This document shows, piece after piece, positions 24,825-47,855 of a stretch of 64,000 nucleotides of DNA. The DNA is from Nodosilinea sp. E11 (GTDB lineage: Bacteria; Cyanobacteriota; Cyanobacteriia; Phormidesmidales; Phormidesmidaceae): assembly GCF_032813545.1 (NCBI RefSeq), contig NZ_CP136520.1:1172001-1236000 (forward strand), given 5' to 3'. The notes beneath the pieces were generated by a model, which was not told the origin of the DNA, did no database searches, and saw only the letters and a program-made list of their open reading frames with translations. The translations under genes were made by a program, and so were the position numbers. Numbering within the stretch: the first letter of the stretch is position 1; every line of letters begins with the position of its first letter.

Positions 24825-25292
24825 ATGAACAACGCTCTACTCGCTTCTATCCGCGAAGCCGACGGTCGCTACCTAACCGATGCCGAACTGCGCCCCTTCA
24901 ACACCATGATGGATGCGTTTCAGGTTCGCATGACCCTCTACAACCAGATTAGGGATCACGGCAAAGAGTTGGTGCTCAATGCGCTGCGGCGGCTAATGCA
25001 AACCCCCCACCGGCAAGTGGTGCAAGAGCATGGCCAGCAATGTCAGCGCGACATGCTGTTTACCCTGGAATACGTGTCTAAGGGCATCTTGCTCCAAGAC
25101 GAAGATGGGTTTATGGAAGAGTACCTGGTGTGGATGCAAAATATCATTCGGGCCTTTCATCACCAAAATGCCTGCGTCGCCGCCTATCGCATGCTCAAAG
25201 AAGAAGTGCGCACCACCCTACCTAGCGACCAGAGCAACTTGATGATGATCTATCTCGACAAGTTAACTGAAGCCCTCGATACCGGTCTTTAG
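24825..25292 (+). CDS. Solitary phycobiliprotein-like (globin-fold) protein with candidate bilin Cys
   Basis: This 155-residue protein is related to allophycocyanin subunits and to the two phycobiliprotein-like proteins of the 42.9-45.3 kb cluster. All share an N-terminal ADGRYLTDAEL-like helix and the helix around the chromophore. It keeps the canonical pocket CxRD (C73, R75 and D76 in QQCQRDMLFTLEY), whereas the cluster copies have lost the Cys. It may therefore still bind a bilin, or may be a pigment-free structural or signalling relative. ATG 24825 gives a normal N terminus, and the 28 codons upstream are not family-like. It has no phycobilisome gene beside it. Confidence 0.75.
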   Translation: MNNALLASIREADGRYLTDAELRPFNTMMDAFQVRMTLYNQIRDHGKELVLNALRRLMQTPHRQVVQEHGQQCQRDMLFTLEYVSKGILLQDEDGFMEEYLVWMQNIIRAFHHQNACVAAYRMLKEEVRTTLPSDQSNLMMIYLDKLTEALDTGL

Positions 25293-41242: not shown

Positions 41243-42091
41243 CTAACACTGACAACGGGGGCAGTAGTGGGCCGATCGCCCCGCTAGCTTCAAACGCAGA
41301 ATAGGTGTCTGGCAGACCCGGCAGGGTTCACCGTCGCGATTATAAACCCAGGCTACGCCACCATAGTTGCCGTTAATGCCATAGATGTCACGATAGTCGC
41401 TAAAGGTAGTTCCCCCTGACTCAATGCTGGTGGTTAGCACCTCACAGATAGCCCTATGTAACCGCTGGATCTGATCAGGATCAAGGCGATCGCTTGGGGT
41501 AAGCGGGCGCAGACCACTGATAAACAGGGCTTCATCGGCGTAGATATTGCCTAGGCCTGCCACCAACCGCTGGTCGAGCAGTGCATTTTTAATCGGGCGA
41601 TGACTGCGGCTCAGATGCTGGTGCAGGTAGGTGACCGAAAATGCCTCATCAAAGGGCTCTGGCCCCAGATTTTTGAGCCCAGTCATGACGGTTTCAGGGG
41701 GCACCCCAGGGGGAACCCACCAAAGGCGACCAAAGGTACGCTGATCGACAAAGCGCAGTTCGTGGCGATCGCTGAGCCAAAGCCGTACCCGGCAATGGCT
41801 CTGTACCGGGGTCTTAGGGTCGAGCCATAGCAGCTGACCAGTCATGCGTAGATGCACCCCTAGGTAGCCACCGGGGCGACCATTGAGCCGGGTCAACTCA
41901 CCTAGCAGATACTTGCCTCGGCGGTGCCAGGCGCTCAGAGTAGCCCCCGTTAACCCCGCCCAAAATTCGGTTTCGGTAGCCGGGTGGGCAATCGATCGCG
42001 CTAGCAGCACCTGCCCCCCCTCTAACGGGTGACCCGGTGTTACCCGTTCGAGCCCCCGTCTTACGGTTTCAACTTCAGGTAATTCTGGCAC
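41243..42091 (-). CDS. mutM: Formamidopyrimidine-DNA glycosylase
   Basis: This 282-residue protein begins MPELPEVETVRRGLE, exposing catalytic Pro2 and Glu3. It has the zinc finger CRVCQT...CPRC at the C end, and the HLRMTGQLLW stretch of the family. It excises 8-oxoguanine and formamidopyrimidines from oxidised DNA. It lies about 200 bp downstream of psaE on the same strand. That pairing is frequent in cyanobacteria, but a terminator for psaE stands between the two. Confidence 0.96.
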   Translation of the reverse strand: MPELPEVETVRRGLERVTPGHPLEGGQVLLARSIAHPATETEFWAGLTGATLSAWHRRGKYLLGELTRLNGRPGGYLGVHLRMTGQLLWLDPKTPVQSHCRVRLWLSDRHELRFVDQRTFGRLWWVPPGVPPETVMTGLKNLGPEPFDEAFSVTYLHQHLSRSHRPIKNALLDQRLVAGLGNIYADEALFISGLRPLTPSDRLDPDQIQRLHRAICEVLTTSIESGGTTFSDYRDIYGINGNYGGVAWVYNRDGEPCRVCQTPILRLKLAGRSAHYCPRCQC

Positions 42092-42295: not shown

Positions 42296-42520
42296 TTAGC
42301 CACCAGTAGCGGCAGGCTTTTTGGCCTTAGGAGCTTCAACCTCTTGCAGTTCAGACACCGCGAAGTTGTTAGTGTTGATGCCAGCGTAGTTAACCTTGTC
42401 AAAGCGCACTACCGCAGGGTATTTGATGCCGCTTTGGTCGATGGTGGCTACAGTACCGACTTCCCGATACCAGTAAGACTCTTTGCGCAGGATGCGAACT
42501 TTAGAACCACGTTGAACCAT
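42296..42520 (-). CDS. psaE: Photosystem I reaction center subunit IV (PsaE)
   Basis: This 74-residue protein sits on the stromal face of photosystem I, where it helps dock ferredoxin and its reductase. It starts [20 protein letters not shown], has [20 protein letters not shown], and [18 protein letters not shown], an SH3-like barrel typical of the family. The Ala/Pro/Lys tail is variable. ATG 42520 is the family start. The divergent neighbour is the light-response cluster at 42896. Confidence 0.97.
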
Positions 42521-42895: not shown

Positions 42896-43372
42896 ATGCT
42901 GACCAAAGTTGAGGCCTTAGTACACGCGACTGATGGCCGCTATGCCTCTGATCAAGAACTGATGTTTTTTCAGAGCTATCTCTCCTCAGTAGGCCCTCGG
43001 CTACGGGCCTACCAAAAGATACAAAAAGCTGAGCAGCAAATCATTGCCCAGGTAATGGCTAAGCTCAACGCACAAAAGCCGAGTATCTTTTTGGTAGGCG
43101 GGCAAGATTTGACGGCCAAATGGCAGCGAGACACCGTGCGGGTACTGCGCTATAGCGCTATTGCTCTGCTGCTCGACGATCCAGAGCGGTTCAAAGAAGG
43201 GCTGCTGATGTGGTTTCAAACCATCATGCGTGCGTTTGGTGCCCAAGAAAGCTGCAATCTTACCTACACTGCTATGCAAGAGGTAATTGCCCAGCACCTC
43301 AATACGGAAGAACTTAGAATGTTCCTGCCCATCCTCGAGCTAAGCCGTGTCACCTTAGGTGAGCTTGTATAG
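42896..43372 (+). CDS. Phycobiliprotein-like protein (pocket Cys replaced), Pap-like cluster gene 1
   Basis: This 158-residue globin-fold protein resembles allophycocyanin subunits and the other two phycobiliprotein-like proteins in the window. The chromophore pocket motif reads KWQRDTVRVLRY, so the bilin-attaching Cys position is W76 while R78 and D79 remain. A covalently bound bilin is therefore unlikely, and it may serve as a pigment-free adaptor or a non-covalent binder. It opens the cluster and lies just downstream of the HLR1 element. A 316-bp gap with one hairpin separates it from the V4R gene. Confidence 0.8.
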   Translation: MLTKVEALVHATDGRYASDQELMFFQSYLSSVGPRLRAYQKIQKAEQQIIAQVMAKLNAQKPSIFLVGGQDLTAKWQRDTVRVLRYSAIALLLDDPERFKEGLLMWFQTIMRAFGAQESCNLTYTAMQEVIAQHLNTEELRMFLPILELSRVTLGELV

Positions 43373-43688
43373 CACCAGGGTGAGTTCTCTGAAGCCGATG
43401 CTTAGACGAGGCTGATTATGCCCCAACCAGTTATAAGTCTGCGTAATTTTTCTTTGACCCAGGGAGCCCCATTTGCTCACCTGGGTCATCACGTTAGCAG
43501 CGAATTACTACGTTTTATGTCGTTTTAGGATATCGGGTGGCGGGCTCAAGTTCCTTAGTCATAGTAGTTTTGGGAATGAGCCTGTGGCTAACTTATAGTT
43601 ACAATCGCTCCAAGGCGATGTTAATTCTGGGTAGGCTTGGGCACATTACACCTATCACTGAAAACAGTCTTACAAGGCTTGTTCGACC
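43373..43688. other. Intergenic region inside the Pap-like cluster, with hairpin
   Basis: An inverted repeat with 9-bp arms (TGACCCAGG at 43455-43463, complement at 43480-43488, 16-base loop) lies 80 bases past the first gene's stop. It could partly terminate or process the transcript. The second promoter for the following five genes may be here. No gene is seen. Confidence 0.5.
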
Positions 43689-44372
43689 ATGGTTATGACT
43701 ACAGAGACCGCCCACCGTCTGAACCAAAAATTTCCCAAGAAGCATAACCACTATGCCCTGCGGGATTTCTTCCAGTTTGATGGGGACTACGGCACCATCA
43801 CTGACTGGAACAACACCCGCAATGTGCTCACCAGTGAAGACTTCATCATTGGCCTGCTAGAAGGCTTGCAAGAAGAGGTCGGCGATGCCTCAGCCGCCAT
43901 CATGTATACGGTAGGTCTGGAGTGGGGCAAACACGACTCGCTGATATTTGAGGCCTGGTTTGAGCGCGAGTTTGCCATGAGCCCTCGCCGTGCCAACCTG
44001 ATGTTTTTACTCGAAACCTGGTGGTGGCCCTTCATTTCCCAGGGCTGGGGCCGGTGGGAGGTCGACATGAGCGATCGCAAACAGGGCTTCATGTTCATCA
44101 ACGTGTTTGACTCCGCTGTGGCCCGCACCCTAGGCGATGTGGGCAAACCGGTATGTCACCTCTACGCCGGTCTGTTTGCGGGCTTCTTTACCGAAATGGT
44201 GCGCAAGCAGCTGAGCTGCATTGAAATTCAATGCTATTCCATGGGTGAAACCTACTGCAAATTTTTGCTAGGTGGCCGAGAGCGCATCGATGCTGCCGCC
44301 TTTTGGATGAATGAAGGGGCTAACGCCCGCGACATTGAGAAGCGGCTGCGGGCTGGGGAAGGTGGCCAATGA
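43689..44372 (+). CDS. V4R domain protein 1 (Slr0144/Slr0147-like), Pap-like cluster gene 2
   Basis: This 227-residue protein carries a C-terminal V4R domain (about 140-196), a small-molecule-binding fold. It has conserved Cys C177, C182 and C190 in CIEIQCYSMGETYC, preceded by C156. The N-terminal region is helical and Trp-rich around residue 110. In Synechocystis the V4R genes slr0144 and slr0147 belong to the operon needed for efficient photosystem II assembly. The stop overlaps the next start (ATGA, four bases), so translation is coupled. Confidence 0.8.
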   Translation: MVMTTETAHRLNQKFPKKHNHYALRDFFQFDGDYGTITDWNNTRNVLTSEDFIIGLLEGLQEEVGDASAAIMYTVGLEWGKHDSLIFEAWFEREFAMSPRRANLMFLLETWWWPFISQGWGRWEVDMSDRKQGFMFINVFDSAVARTLGDVGKPVCHLYAGLFAGFFTEMVRKQLSCIEIQCYSMGETYCKFLLGGRERIDAAAFWMNEGANARDIEKRLRAGEGGQ

Positions 44373-44677
44373 GCATTTCTTTAGCTCCTATGGCCGACTC
44401 TCAGACCCCTCAGCTCTGGCTGAGAGAAACTGTGCAGGTCTTTTTTGAAGGCGTGGCCTGGGACGGACGGGTAGCGGCTGCGGCTTCAGGGCTAGGAGAA
44501 AGTAGCCAGACAGGGTCAACGATGACCATGACCGTCGGCGACTTCTTTCAAAATATTGCCTGGGACGGCCAACCCACGATTGGGGTGCCGATTACACCCC
44601 TAGCCGCCGCCGCTGACCCCACGCCAAACTCTGACCTAGATTTGACCCTAGACGGCTTTTCTGACCTGTTTGGTTAA
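44369..44677 (+). CDS. Short WDG-repeat protein (Slr0145-like), Pap-like cluster gene 3
   Basis: This 102-residue protein has two copies of a motif, FFEGVAWDGR (FF25-26, WDG31-33) and FFQNIAWDGQ (FF59-60, WDG65-67). They are separated by a Gly/Ser/Thr-rich linker, with an acidic LDGFSDLFG ending. No membrane helix or catalytic motif exists. The repeated FF-x4-WDG look suggests two short docking peptides, perhaps for the V4R or phycobiliprotein-like neighbours; that is inference. The start overlaps the V4R gene by four bases. Confidence 0.7.
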   Translation: MSISLAPMADSQTPQLWLRETVQVFFEGVAWDGRVAAAASGLGESSQTGSTMTMTVGDFFQNIAWDGQPTIGVPITPLAAAADPTPNSDLDLTLDGFSDLFG

Positions 44678-44779
44678 ACTCAGCCAGGTCGTCAAAGCTC
44701 GTTCACGGCGGCTGCCATCGGCTTTTTAGCCGCCAACTCTCGGCCCCTTGACCGCCCTAGATATTCGGAGGATTTTGCC

Positions 44780-45268
44780 ATGACCTTTAAGCTCGACGCC
44801 CTATTTGACTCGCCCGAGAAACAATACCTTGACGCCAACGACCTCAGCCTCTTGAGTCAGTACGTCAGCTCGATTCCTGAACGCATGACGGTCTATCGTA
44901 CCCTACGCGATCAAGAGATTGCCATTATGCAGCCCATTGCCGATGCCCTGCAACAGCAGGGGGGCCATGCTGAAGCCCTAGTTGAGCGCAGTGTGCGCAA
45001 CGGGCTAATGGTGCTGCGCTACGTCGCCATGGCCATGCTGTTAGACGACGATGCCTTTGTGGAGGAGCGCCTGCGAGGTTGGCTGCCCGAAATGGTAAAA
45101 GCCTACGACACTCAAGCTGTTGATCAGCAATTATTTCAACTCTTGCAGCAGCAGTTGGCCAAGGTGTTTTCCCCCGCTCAGGTCAACCTGCTCAAGCCCA
45201 ACCTAGAGAAAGCCCAAGATCTCATACTCAACACCCGCGAAACTGTCACTCTGGCTGGATTGCTTTAG
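44780..45268 (+). CDS. Phycobiliprotein-like protein (pocket Cys replaced by Ser), Pap-like cluster gene 4
   Basis: This 162-residue relative of the gene-1 product and of Synechocystis Slr0146 has the pocket helix ERSVRNGLMVLRY. The Cys position is S71 and the Asp is Asn (R73, N74), so both key chromophore-contact residues are changed. It should be pigment-free. A good AGGA ribosome site lies eight to ten bases upstream of the ATG at 44780. It is 102 bp after the WDG gene and 87 bp before the next V4R gene. Confidence 0.78.
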   Translation: MTFKLDALFDSPEKQYLDANDLSLLSQYVSSIPERMTVYRTLRDQEIAIMQPIADALQQQGGHAEALVERSVRNGLMVLRYVAMAMLLDDDAFVEERLRGWLPEMVKAYDTQAVDQQLFQLLQQQLAKVFSPAQVNLLKPNLEKAQDLILNTRETVTLAGLL

Positions 45269-45355
45269 CTGAACTGCTACGGAGACCCCTGGCTCCACCT
45301 GAAATCCTCAGTGGGTATGACCACCCCCATCCCTATCCTGTGAAGGACGTTAACT

Positions 45356-46018
45356 ATGGTTTCTGTTGCCGATTTGCTCACTGATGGCCGGTTACCCGGC
45401 AACTACTTTGCTCAAGATCTCTACGTGCGGGGGTCAACAGAGCTAGGATTACTGGAAAACCGCCGTGGCGATCGCCTGCTGGCCATTCCTAACCCACTAT
45501 TACAAGCGATTTACTCTGGACTAGAAAAAGAAACCGGCCAGGCATCAGGGTTAGTGCTCTATAACTGTGGCCGCTGGTGGGGCAAAAACTTTTACGCTCG
45601 CTTTTGTGAAGAGCTGTCTGACTACTACAAGCAACCTTTAGCTAGCCTGTCGATGGCTGAATTTTTGCAGTCGCTTCAGCAGTGCTGGAAAACCCACGGC
45701 TGGGGACAGATTCACCTCGATATCACCTATCGCGATCGCGGTTTTTTAGGCGTAGAAATTTGGCATTCTCCCTTCACGGCAGCCGCTCCCCAGGGCCAAA
45801 AACCCTCCGGCGATCTAGAGCGCGGCATTGTTGAAATTTTCTTTACCCAGCTCACCGGGCGTGAGCTCCGCTGCATGCAGACCAGTTGCACCACCAAAGG
45901 CGACGACTGCAACCGCTTCATTTTGGGTTTAGAAAAGCGGCTCCAACCCGTAGGAGCTATGGTAGCCAACGGCCAGGCCCACCAAGCGATTATGCAAACC
46001 CTCATGCAGCAGGGGTAA
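45356..46018 (+). CDS. V4R domain protein 2 (Slr0147-like), Pap-like cluster gene 5
   Basis: This 220-residue V4R protein is homologous to gene 2, with the conserved Cys trio C173, C178 and C185 in CMQTSCTTKGDDC of the V4R domain. The spacing C-x4-C matches the other V4R protein exactly and the next Cys is one residue closer. GAAGGA precedes the ATG at 45356. The stop is seven bases before the GTG start of the kinase, so the pair is likely cotranslated. V4R proteins can bind hydrophobic ligands or metals, and a pigment or lipid ligand is possible. Confidence 0.78.
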   Translation: MVSVADLLTDGRLPGNYFAQDLYVRGSTELGLLENRRGDRLLAIPNPLLQAIYSGLEKETGQASGLVLYNCGRWWGKNFYARFCEELSDYYKQPLASLSMAEFLQSLQQCWKTHGWGQIHLDITYRDRGFLGVEIWHSPFTAAAPQGQKPSGDLERGIVEIFFTQLTGRELRCMQTSCTTKGDDCNRFILGLEKRLQPVGAMVANGQAHQAIMQTLMQQG

Positions 46019-46025
46019 CCGAACG

Positions 46026-47855
46026 GTGGCCCTAACCCGGCAGATTCGACGATCACAGTATTACACCCTGGGACTGGTGGGGCATGGGCAGTTTGGCCGA
46101 GTCTACTGCGCCATTCACCGCAAAACTGGGGAACTCATGGCCATTAAGGATCTCCACAAAGATCGCTTTCCCACCCACAAGTTTTTGCGGGAGCTGCGCT
46201 TTCTAATTAGCCTAGAGCACCCAAGTATTGTTACCTGTCACGCCCTGGAGCATTCCATCAGTGGTCGGCAGCTCGTGCTTGACTACTGCGAAGGGGGCAC
46301 GCTGCGATCGCTGCTCGACAGTGACACCATCCTGACCGTGCAGGAGGTGCTGGGATTTGTGCTAGATATACTGGCGGCCCTAGACTGTGCCCACCGGCAG
46401 GGCATTGTGCACTGCGATATCAAACCCGAAAACATTCTCATGGAGCTGACCCCCGGCGGTTGGGTGGCGCGGGTGTCTGACCTAGGCATTGCTCGTCTGA
46501 GTCAAGAGGCAAAACAGGCTGATATGGGGCATACAGGATCACCTGCCTATATGGCTCCGGAGCGGTTTTATAATCAGCACCCGCCCGCTGCCGACCTCTA
46601 CGCCGTAGGGATTATTTTATACGAGTTGCTACTAGATCAGCGGCCCTTCTCAGGCACTCCGATGGAGCTGATGGTGGCCCATCTGAACCGGCCCCCCATC
46701 CTGCCTACCCATTTGCCAGATCCGTTAGGCAGGGTGATTTATAAGGCCCTGCAAAAACTGTTAGCCAAGCGCTACGCCACCGCTAGCGAAATGCGCACTG
46801 AACTGATGGCGGTATACCAAACCTATCAAGCTCAGGGAGCACTCACCCAGCCCGCCTGCCTAAAGCAATTGCCTGAGATCGATCTGGCCCCTGATCTAGC
46901 CTCGGTGACGTTACCCCACCCTACGACCGTCATGGGGCTAGTGCCAATGCCTCACCAGGGCCATTTGCTAGTGACCTGTAGCCAGCAGATGGTCTGGTTT
47001 TATCACTGGCCCCAGGACGGGGGTATCAGTGCTCCCAATGACAGCCAAGGCTTTGCCCTGCCGGCCCCGGTACAAAGTTTTTTACCCACTCCCCAGGGGG
47101 GCATACTGGTGACGACAGAGTCTGTGCACCTGCTGTCAACAACCCACGGGTTAGGCTGCATTGCTAAGGATACGATTGCTGAAGGAGTGGCGATTTCACC
47201 CGACGGGCGCTGGTTTGCCACAGCTTCAAGGCTTGACCAAGCGACATTTAGCGTGGCTGTGCGCCAGCTCACCATGCCGCTAGAGCATGAGGTCAAGATA
47301 TCGGCTCCGCTCGCTGTAATGATTCCGGCTGAACCAGGCGATCGCTTGGTTACCCTACTGACCGTGGACACCCGTCACGCAGTGCTGGTGGTGCGTCGGG
47401 GCAGCCGTACGCTGTTCCACGCAGTCACTCGCCGAGGCCACTATCTAGGGGCCATTGTGGCCTCGCTGCCCATTTATAACTTGACACCTACCCGCTCTCC
47501 CTACCGCTATCTAGCGCTAGAAGAGAACTGCCCCAGTGCGGTACTGATTGTCGACTTGAAACCCTTTAAAATTCTGCGTCACCGAGTTGATATTGTTCCT
47601 GACTGGCTGTTTGAAACTGCGGTGGGCTACGGCCTATTGAGTCAAGACGGCAAGTTCTCGTTGATCAACGATGAGGGGCGCATATTGAATCGGATGGCCG
47701 GGCTGCCGCGACCTGAGATGATGGTGACCTGGGGGCCTAAGGCAGGAGTTGGGAGGCCTTTGCCAACCCAGTACCTATGGGGCATGAATGAGGGCGATCG
47801 CAGCCGTATTTACAGCGTTGGCCTGACCGACTTGGCTCCCGATGTTTTGTTCTAG
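46026..47855 (+). CDS. Serine/threonine protein kinase (SpkG-like), Pap-like cluster gene 6
   Basis: This 609-residue protein has a Hanks-type kinase domain (about 12-265). The Gly loop is GHGQFG (19-24), the ATP lysine K41 in MAIKDL, the helix-C Glu E56, the catalytic HCDIKPEN (129-136), DLG (152-154) and APE (177-179). All needed residues are present, with HCD instead of HRD. The remaining ~300 residues lack a membrane helix and look beta-propeller-like. In Synechocystis the operon ends with SpkG (slr0152), so this is the probable counterpart. GTG is the only sensible start. Confidence 0.82.
   Translation: MALTRQIRRSQYYTLGLVGHGQFGRVYCAIHRKTGELMAIKDLHKDRFPTHKFLRELRFLISLEHPSIVTCHALEHSISGRQLVLDYCEGGTLRSLLDSDTILTVQEVLGFVLDILAALDCAHRQGIVHCDIKPENILMELTPGGWVARVSDLGIARLSQEAKQADMGHTGSPAYMAPERFYNQHPPAADLYAVGIILYELLLDQRPFSGTPMELMVAHLNRPPILPTHLPDPLGRVIYKALQKLLAKRYATASEMRTELMAVYQTYQAQGALTQPACLKQLPEIDLAPDLASVTLPHPTTVMGLVPMPHQGHLLVTCSQQMVWFYHWPQDGGISAPNDSQGFALPAPVQSFLPTPQGGILVTTESVHLLSTTHGLGCIAKDTIAEGVAISPDGRWFATASRLDQATFSVAVRQLTMPLEHEVKISAPLAVMIPAEPGDRLVTLLTVDTRHAVLVVRRGSRTLFHAVTRRGHYLGAIVASLPIYNLTPTRSPYRYLALEENCPSAVLIVDLKPFKILRHRVDIVPDWLFETAVGYGLLSQDGKFSLINDEGRILNRMAGLPRPEMMVTWGPKAGVGRPLPTQYLWGMNEGDRSRIYSVGLTDLAPDVLF

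Follow-up and report, generated by a model that had tools for sequence, protein, structure and literature searches.

In Synechocystis, the proteins Slr0144 to Slr0149 are located at the thylakoid, and the interactions among them are backed by co-fractionation and by AP-MS with Slr0149-GFP (PMC9880817). Slr0148 is Fed5, or Fd5 (PMC4284462); its phosphorylation is gone in an spkG mutant, the activity of SpkG itself never having been shown directly (PMC11863333). The slr0144-slr0152 operon has been connected with the optimal functioning of photosystem II (PMC9145668), a link that is also made in PMC4853703. Some data connect the operon with photosystem I as well, and its deletion barely affects growth in the conditions tested (PMC5970561). 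The cyanobacterial set has its ancestry in bilin-synthesis-associated clusters from other bacteria, according to work on the BBAG lineage and its bilin binding (PMC10151467).

The window, as we call the whole 64,000-nucleotide stretch of DNA analysed here, comes from a genome that is Nodosilinea-like by its closest named relatives. It contains the common, widespread head-order form of the Slr0144-Slr0152 (Pap/BBAG) set, which is not a reduced form. The gene set and its order were already known; what is new is a lineage-wide Cys/Trp difference in its biliprotein subunit, of which no description was found in the literature consulted.

Organization of the gene cluster

The cluster comprises six open reading frames, all on the forward strand. 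The first encodes a phycobiliprotein-fold protein of 158 residues (PBP1, 42896-43372; PF00502, 6.4e-19). It is followed by a Slr0144-type V4R protein of 227 residues (V4R-A, 43689-44372; PF02830, 5.6e-21), a WDG-repeat protein of 102 residues in the Slr0145 position (44369-44677), a second phycobiliprotein-fold protein, of 162 residues, in the Slr0146 position (PBP2, 44780-45268; PF00502, 2e-8), a Slr0147-type V4R protein of 220 residues (V4R-B, 45356-46018; PF02830, 7e-12) and a SpkG-type Ser/Thr kinase of 609 residues with a GTG start (46026-47855; PF00069, 6.3e-45). Reading frames and Pfam matches confirm the six genes and the domain families named for them in the original prediction, with the WDG-repeat protein matching no family in Pfam or NCBIfam. 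A psaE-like gene (42296-42520) and a mutM (fpg)-like gene (41243-42091), both on the reverse strand, can be read from the sequence immediately 5' of PBP1.

The V4R-A and WDG genes overlap by 4 bases, and just 7 bases (46019-46025) separate the V4R-B and kinase genes. The spacing between PBP1 and V4R-A is 316 bp and includes, just 5' of V4R-A, a non-coding leader of 48 bp on the forward strand (43639-43686), recognized by its sequence conservation. Because of this spacing and of the strong conservation of the leader, a single operon for the six genes is only putative, and PBP1 may have its own transcription. Between 43 and 48 of the 48 leader bases are identical in most Nodosilinea-like genomes, and the first 12 bp (GGGCACATTACA) are more widely conserved than the remainder. 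As a regulon motif the 11-12-bp start was ruled out, with 4 matches in 6.1 Mb against about 3 expected by chance, as estimated from the motif length. A structured RNA was likewise rejected, the predicted fold being no better than those of shuffled sequences for three of four sequences and Rfam giving no match; a promoter scan found no more sites than in shuffles.

V4R-A, WDG, PBP2 and V4R-B are contiguous and in the order of the Slr0144-Slr0149-type core set. The window shares with Synechocystis slr0144-slr0152 (PMC4853703, PMC9145668) the two V4R proteins, the WDG-type protein, the two phycobiliprotein-fold proteins and the SpkG-type kinase, as well as an Fe-S gene in the genome. It differs in having the Slr0149-position gene at the head and not after the Fe-S gene, in the distance of the Fe-S gene (1.1 Mb) and in the lack of a Slr0151-type TPR gene and of an in-cluster PetF. 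None of the reading frames of the cluster is a ferredoxin, PetF or TPR gene, and in place of the Fe-S, PBP1, PetF and TPR genes of the Synechocystis Pap order there is only the 7-base gap, as the original prediction had noted. In Acaryochloris too, a Slr0149-type gene, annotated apcA, adjoins the slr0144-0148 set (PMC6002478), but there the full extended set is present, including slr0151-0152 homologues, whereas the window has the compact head order. The cyanobacterial BBAG clusters of Rockwell et al. (2023; PMC10151467) share with the window the co-occurrence of a BBAG (PBP1), a V4R clade A/B pair and an Fe-S protein, and neither a bilin reductase nor a heme oxygenase is, as there, among the six genes. 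The CXRD cysteine is present in BBAG-1 and BBAG-3, the members that have been characterised, where PBP1 of the window has a tryptophan.

Gene order in other cyanobacteria

Two samples were compared. In the named set, 80 loci of related cyanobacteria that were fetched by similarity and are therefore biased towards relatives of the window, the kinase gene directly follows V4R-B in 73 of the 75 loci with a readable V4R-B neighbourhood. The class-wide set consists of 74 genomes picked for family spread, with 72 primary loci classified by script. V4R-B and the kinase gene are adjacent in 28 of these and have Fe-S, PBP1 and/or TPR genes between them in 10; in the remaining loci the kinase gene is absent, out of range or at another place. 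In head-order clusters, PBP1 lies 5' of V4R-A, not behind V4R-B, and is often paired with the Fe-S gene: among the 80 named loci, the order is Fe-S-PBP1-V4R-A in 18 and PBP1-V4R-A in 28, with neither within reach in 34. One locus (L196) has the full Synechocystis-like order of V4R-A, WDG, PBP2, V4R-B, Fe-S, PBP1, PetF, TPR and kinase.

Synteny with loci of the L196 type, together with the published descriptions, supports the original assignment of the cluster to the Slr0144-Slr0152 (Pap) set. The proposal that it is a compact, minimal version of that set has to be given up: adjacency of V4R-B and kinase is the common order (73 of 75 and 28 versus 10) and no peculiarity of this genome, and most clusters of this kind are without the ferredoxin and TPR genes, an outcome that the original prediction had itself named as refuting compaction. 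V4R matches are present in 206 of 382 high-quality cyanobacterial genomes, and many cyanobacteria are without the gene set. Five loci (L172, L173, L175, L207 and L212) have a shorter set of Fe-S, V4R-A, PBP1 and V4R-B genes, with a Cys-type PBP1 and a diverged Fe-S protein; these are possibly a separate paralogous system.

The Fe-S and TPR genes

A profile search located a Slr0148-type Fe-S gene in the window's own genome at C7:2317213-2317692 (E 1.1e-81; site L219). The set is thus divided between two sites, 1.1 Mb apart, in this genome, and the ferredoxin is not lost. Every one of the 77 V4R-matching genomes examined carries the Fe-S gene (74 with the set and 3 with partial V4R matches, the latter with Fe-S matches of E about 1e-80), as against 0 of 20 that have no such match, counts that come from related genomes and not from independent samples. 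The weakest best match among the 74 has an E-value of 6.9e-45 and belongs to the diverged short sets; in the 20 genomes without V4R-A, the same search yielded only generic ferredoxins, at E about 1e-10 or weaker. G253 and G282, which are among these 20 and belong to the window's own genus, are without both V4R-A and the Fe-S gene; therefore, the set can go missing together. At four loci (L223, L224, L226 and L231), the Fe-S gene and PBP1 are kept together at a separate site. The kinase had been described as having lost its ferredoxin neighbour; its reported substrate is nevertheless still encoded, by a gene that is in trans and tracks the V4R genes. With its presence in trans and complete co-occurrence with V4R, loss of the ferredoxin is also ruled out as a cause of compaction. 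At L219, the Fe-S gene is flanked by an HrcA-like gene on one side and by a 266-residue reading frame (L219:6301-7101) on the other. Many of the other genomes encode a second Hanks-type kinase on the opposite strand, about 3 kb 5' of the Fe-S gene.

Of the two genes sought elsewhere in the genome, only the ferredoxin-like one was recovered. A search of the window's own genome for a full-length Slr0151-type TPR gene gave, as its best match (E 7.7e-18), a generic TPR only, and this gene is really missing here. Its full-length form is essentially limited to tail-order genomes; among the matches listed for head-order genomes, with the exception of G148, there are only generic TPRs that align over the repeats. 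This sets the conserved core, consisting of the two V4R, the WDG, the two phycobiliprotein-fold and the Fe-S proteins and the kinase, apart from a lineage-limited Slr0151-type TPR protein. To take the gap in the operon as a loss is a misreading, as the partner gene is encoded at another site and accompanies the set throughout the genomes examined.

The kinase, V4R and WDG proteins

The kinase has an N-terminal Hanks domain in which the catalytic residues Lys41, Asp131, Asn136 and Asp152 are invariant in the alignment. In the structure model, its C-terminal half is strand-rich and propeller-like, suggesting a docking or sensing domain. The Hanks kinase fold, the conserved C-terminal domain and a single accompanying ortholog, present in single copy in 66 of the 74 genomes, place it in the SpkG type. 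Thr18 and Thr72, which we take to be the phosphorylated residues of Fd5, are kept in the Fe-S protein of the window's own genome and lost in several kinase-less genomes. These losses are mostly on distant branches and the phosphosites are our assumption, and coevolution of the two threonines with the kinase was set aside as evidence.

V4R-A, with a 4-vinyl-reductase (V4R) domain, is better conserved than any other protein of the set, with a median identity of 77% among 63 related loci, compared to 62% for V4R-B. A search of PDB sequences with V4R-A gave no more than a weak match, to 5fru, the V4R structure of a phenol sensor. In an alignment of 13 homologues, the WDG protein, a single copy in the genome, shows the repeat V..FF...W.G.P twice and, at its C-terminus, the motif LTLD.FSDLF.

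The phycobiliprotein-fold proteins

Because of the synteny with class I loci, which have the full Synechocystis-like order, PBP1 is recognized as the probable ortholog of the Slr0149-position gene, the cyanobacterial BBAG; its phycobiliprotein fold and the synteny with the V4R pair and the Fe-S gene agree with this. A phycobiliprotein-like gene does open the cluster, as originally described, but it appears to be this ortholog, relocated, and not an additional gene. The AlphaFold model of PBP1 (pLDDT 86) has an allophycocyanin-like globin fold (TM ~0.8). Where phycobiliproteins have the motif Cys-X-Arg-Asp, PBP1 has Trp-Gln-Arg-Asp, with Trp76 in the place of the cysteine and with Asp79 and Arg85 kept; the PBP2 site is degenerate, Ser-Val-Arg-Asn. 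The bilin cysteine of covalent biliproteins is missing in both, in line with the earlier description of two pigment-lost homologues, but the two cases are not alike. In PBP1 the tryptophan is fixed beside the retained Asp and Arg, whereas the PBP2 site drifts freely (Ser, Ala, Cys, Gly or Val among 144 homologues), which looks like released constraint. Elsewhere in the window, at 24825-25292 on the forward strand, a phycobilisome-domain protein on a long branch has an intact CQRD motif; a similar protein is encoded in the same genome at L220:6424-6891.

PBP1 was found in most of the 74 class-wide genomes. When the best-scoring PBP1 of each of 67 genomes is considered, the site is Trp in 41, Cys in 23 and Phe, Ser or Gly in three. 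The tryptophan follows gene order, occurring in 17 of 19 head-order clusters versus 1 of 18 tail-order clusters. Trp-type proteins share Lys75, Thr80 and Arg82, mostly missing from Cys types, and Asp79 and Arg85 are present in both; the signature KWxRDTxR is co-conserved across diverse genomes. Invariance of Trp76 in the Trp set is given by construction; what is informative is how cleanly the two types separate, how the neighbouring residues change with them and how widely the pattern is spread. A link between the tryptophan and absence of the Fe-S gene was ruled out, the latter being present in all 74 genomes. On a 67-row tree of V4R-A, V4R-B and Fe-S proteins, at least six changes between Trp and non-Trp are needed; six Trp/Cys changes are likewise needed on a tree of PBP1 sequences from which the trait column had been blanked out. 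The two trees were built by a quick method and contain open forks, and they do not fix the direction of change. Because the f16 outgroup branch carries Cys, an early gain of Trp may have been followed by reversion in the tail-order group. The Cys-to-Trp change suggests that the complex here works without covalently bound pigment; judging from the motif, the biliprotein subunit of this lineage most likely no longer holds bilin covalently.

Proposed function and alternatives

We consider it probable that the locus is a head-order Slr0144-Slr0152 form with the genes for a SpkG-type kinase and for five subunits of a six-subunit, thylakoid-associated complex, with Fd5 in trans, with PBP1 either bilin-free or binding non-covalently, and without the TPR protein. 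From the identity, order and co-occurrence of the genes and the Cys-to-Trp change, all observed directly, we infer the following mechanism. The subunits encoded in the window would be V4R-A, the WDG protein as adaptor, PBP2, V4R-B and PBP1, with the Fe-S protein Fd5 as the sixth. The V4R pair would bind a small hydrophobic, tetrapyrrole-like ligand and would share with the two phycobiliprotein-fold subunits a scaffold that the WDG protein holds. Fd5 would supply or sense electrons and would be phosphorylated by the kinase. PBP1, with its tryptophan, would function free of bilin or with a non-covalently held tetrapyrrole, and the whole complex, working without a Slr0151-type TPR protein, would support photosystem II assembly and repair. 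The latter function is transferred from the Synechocystis literature and the association of the subunits on thylakoids from Synechocystis only, an organism in which the gene order and, judging from synteny with L196, also the motif type of PBP1 are unlike those of the window.

A sharper version of this explanation, not exclusive of it, is that the Trp form of PBP1 binds a tetrapyrrole (bilin or chlorophyll precursor) non-covalently, the indole stacking on the ring, and that the complex serves the assembly of chlorophyll proteins by carrying or sensing tetrapyrroles. Asp79 and Arg85, which align with bilin-contacting residues of phycobiliproteins, are kept beside Trp76, and the modelled allophycocyanin-like fold is consistent with such binding; a bulky tryptophan could equally fill the pocket, leaving this version possible but doubtful. 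That PBP1 and PBP2 are decaying biliprotein relics with little function would account for the free variation of the PBP2 site, the small growth effect of the Synechocystis deletion (PMC5970561) and the absence of the set from many cyanobacteria. It is very improbable in view of a tryptophan common to diverse genomes, its KWxRDTxR signature, the few changes on the trees and the membership of Slr0149 in the complex (PMC9880817). A minimal module for signalling or for the assembly of photosystem II, having lost ferredoxin and TPR protein and left with a kinase lacking its substrate, would fit the lack of any ferredoxin, PetF or TPR gene from V4R-B to the kinase and the missing full-length Slr0151-type TPR gene in the genome; the Fe-S gene in trans, its complete co-occurrence with V4R and the spread of the compact order over many families make this unlikely, and of its claims the TPR loss alone survives.

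Returning to the favoured head-order complex, we tentatively extend it to most core cyanobacteria, in which, given the fixed Cys/Trp difference and the co-changed neighbours, the biliprotein subunit may be bilin-free or a non-covalent tetrapyrrole binder, Synechocystis-like lineages having the Cys form. The Trp/Cys split makes bilin use by cyanobacterial BBAG a two-sided question that turns on a single residue. If the extension is true, results from Synechocystis, the source of nearly all experiments, would not be transferable to the majority form.
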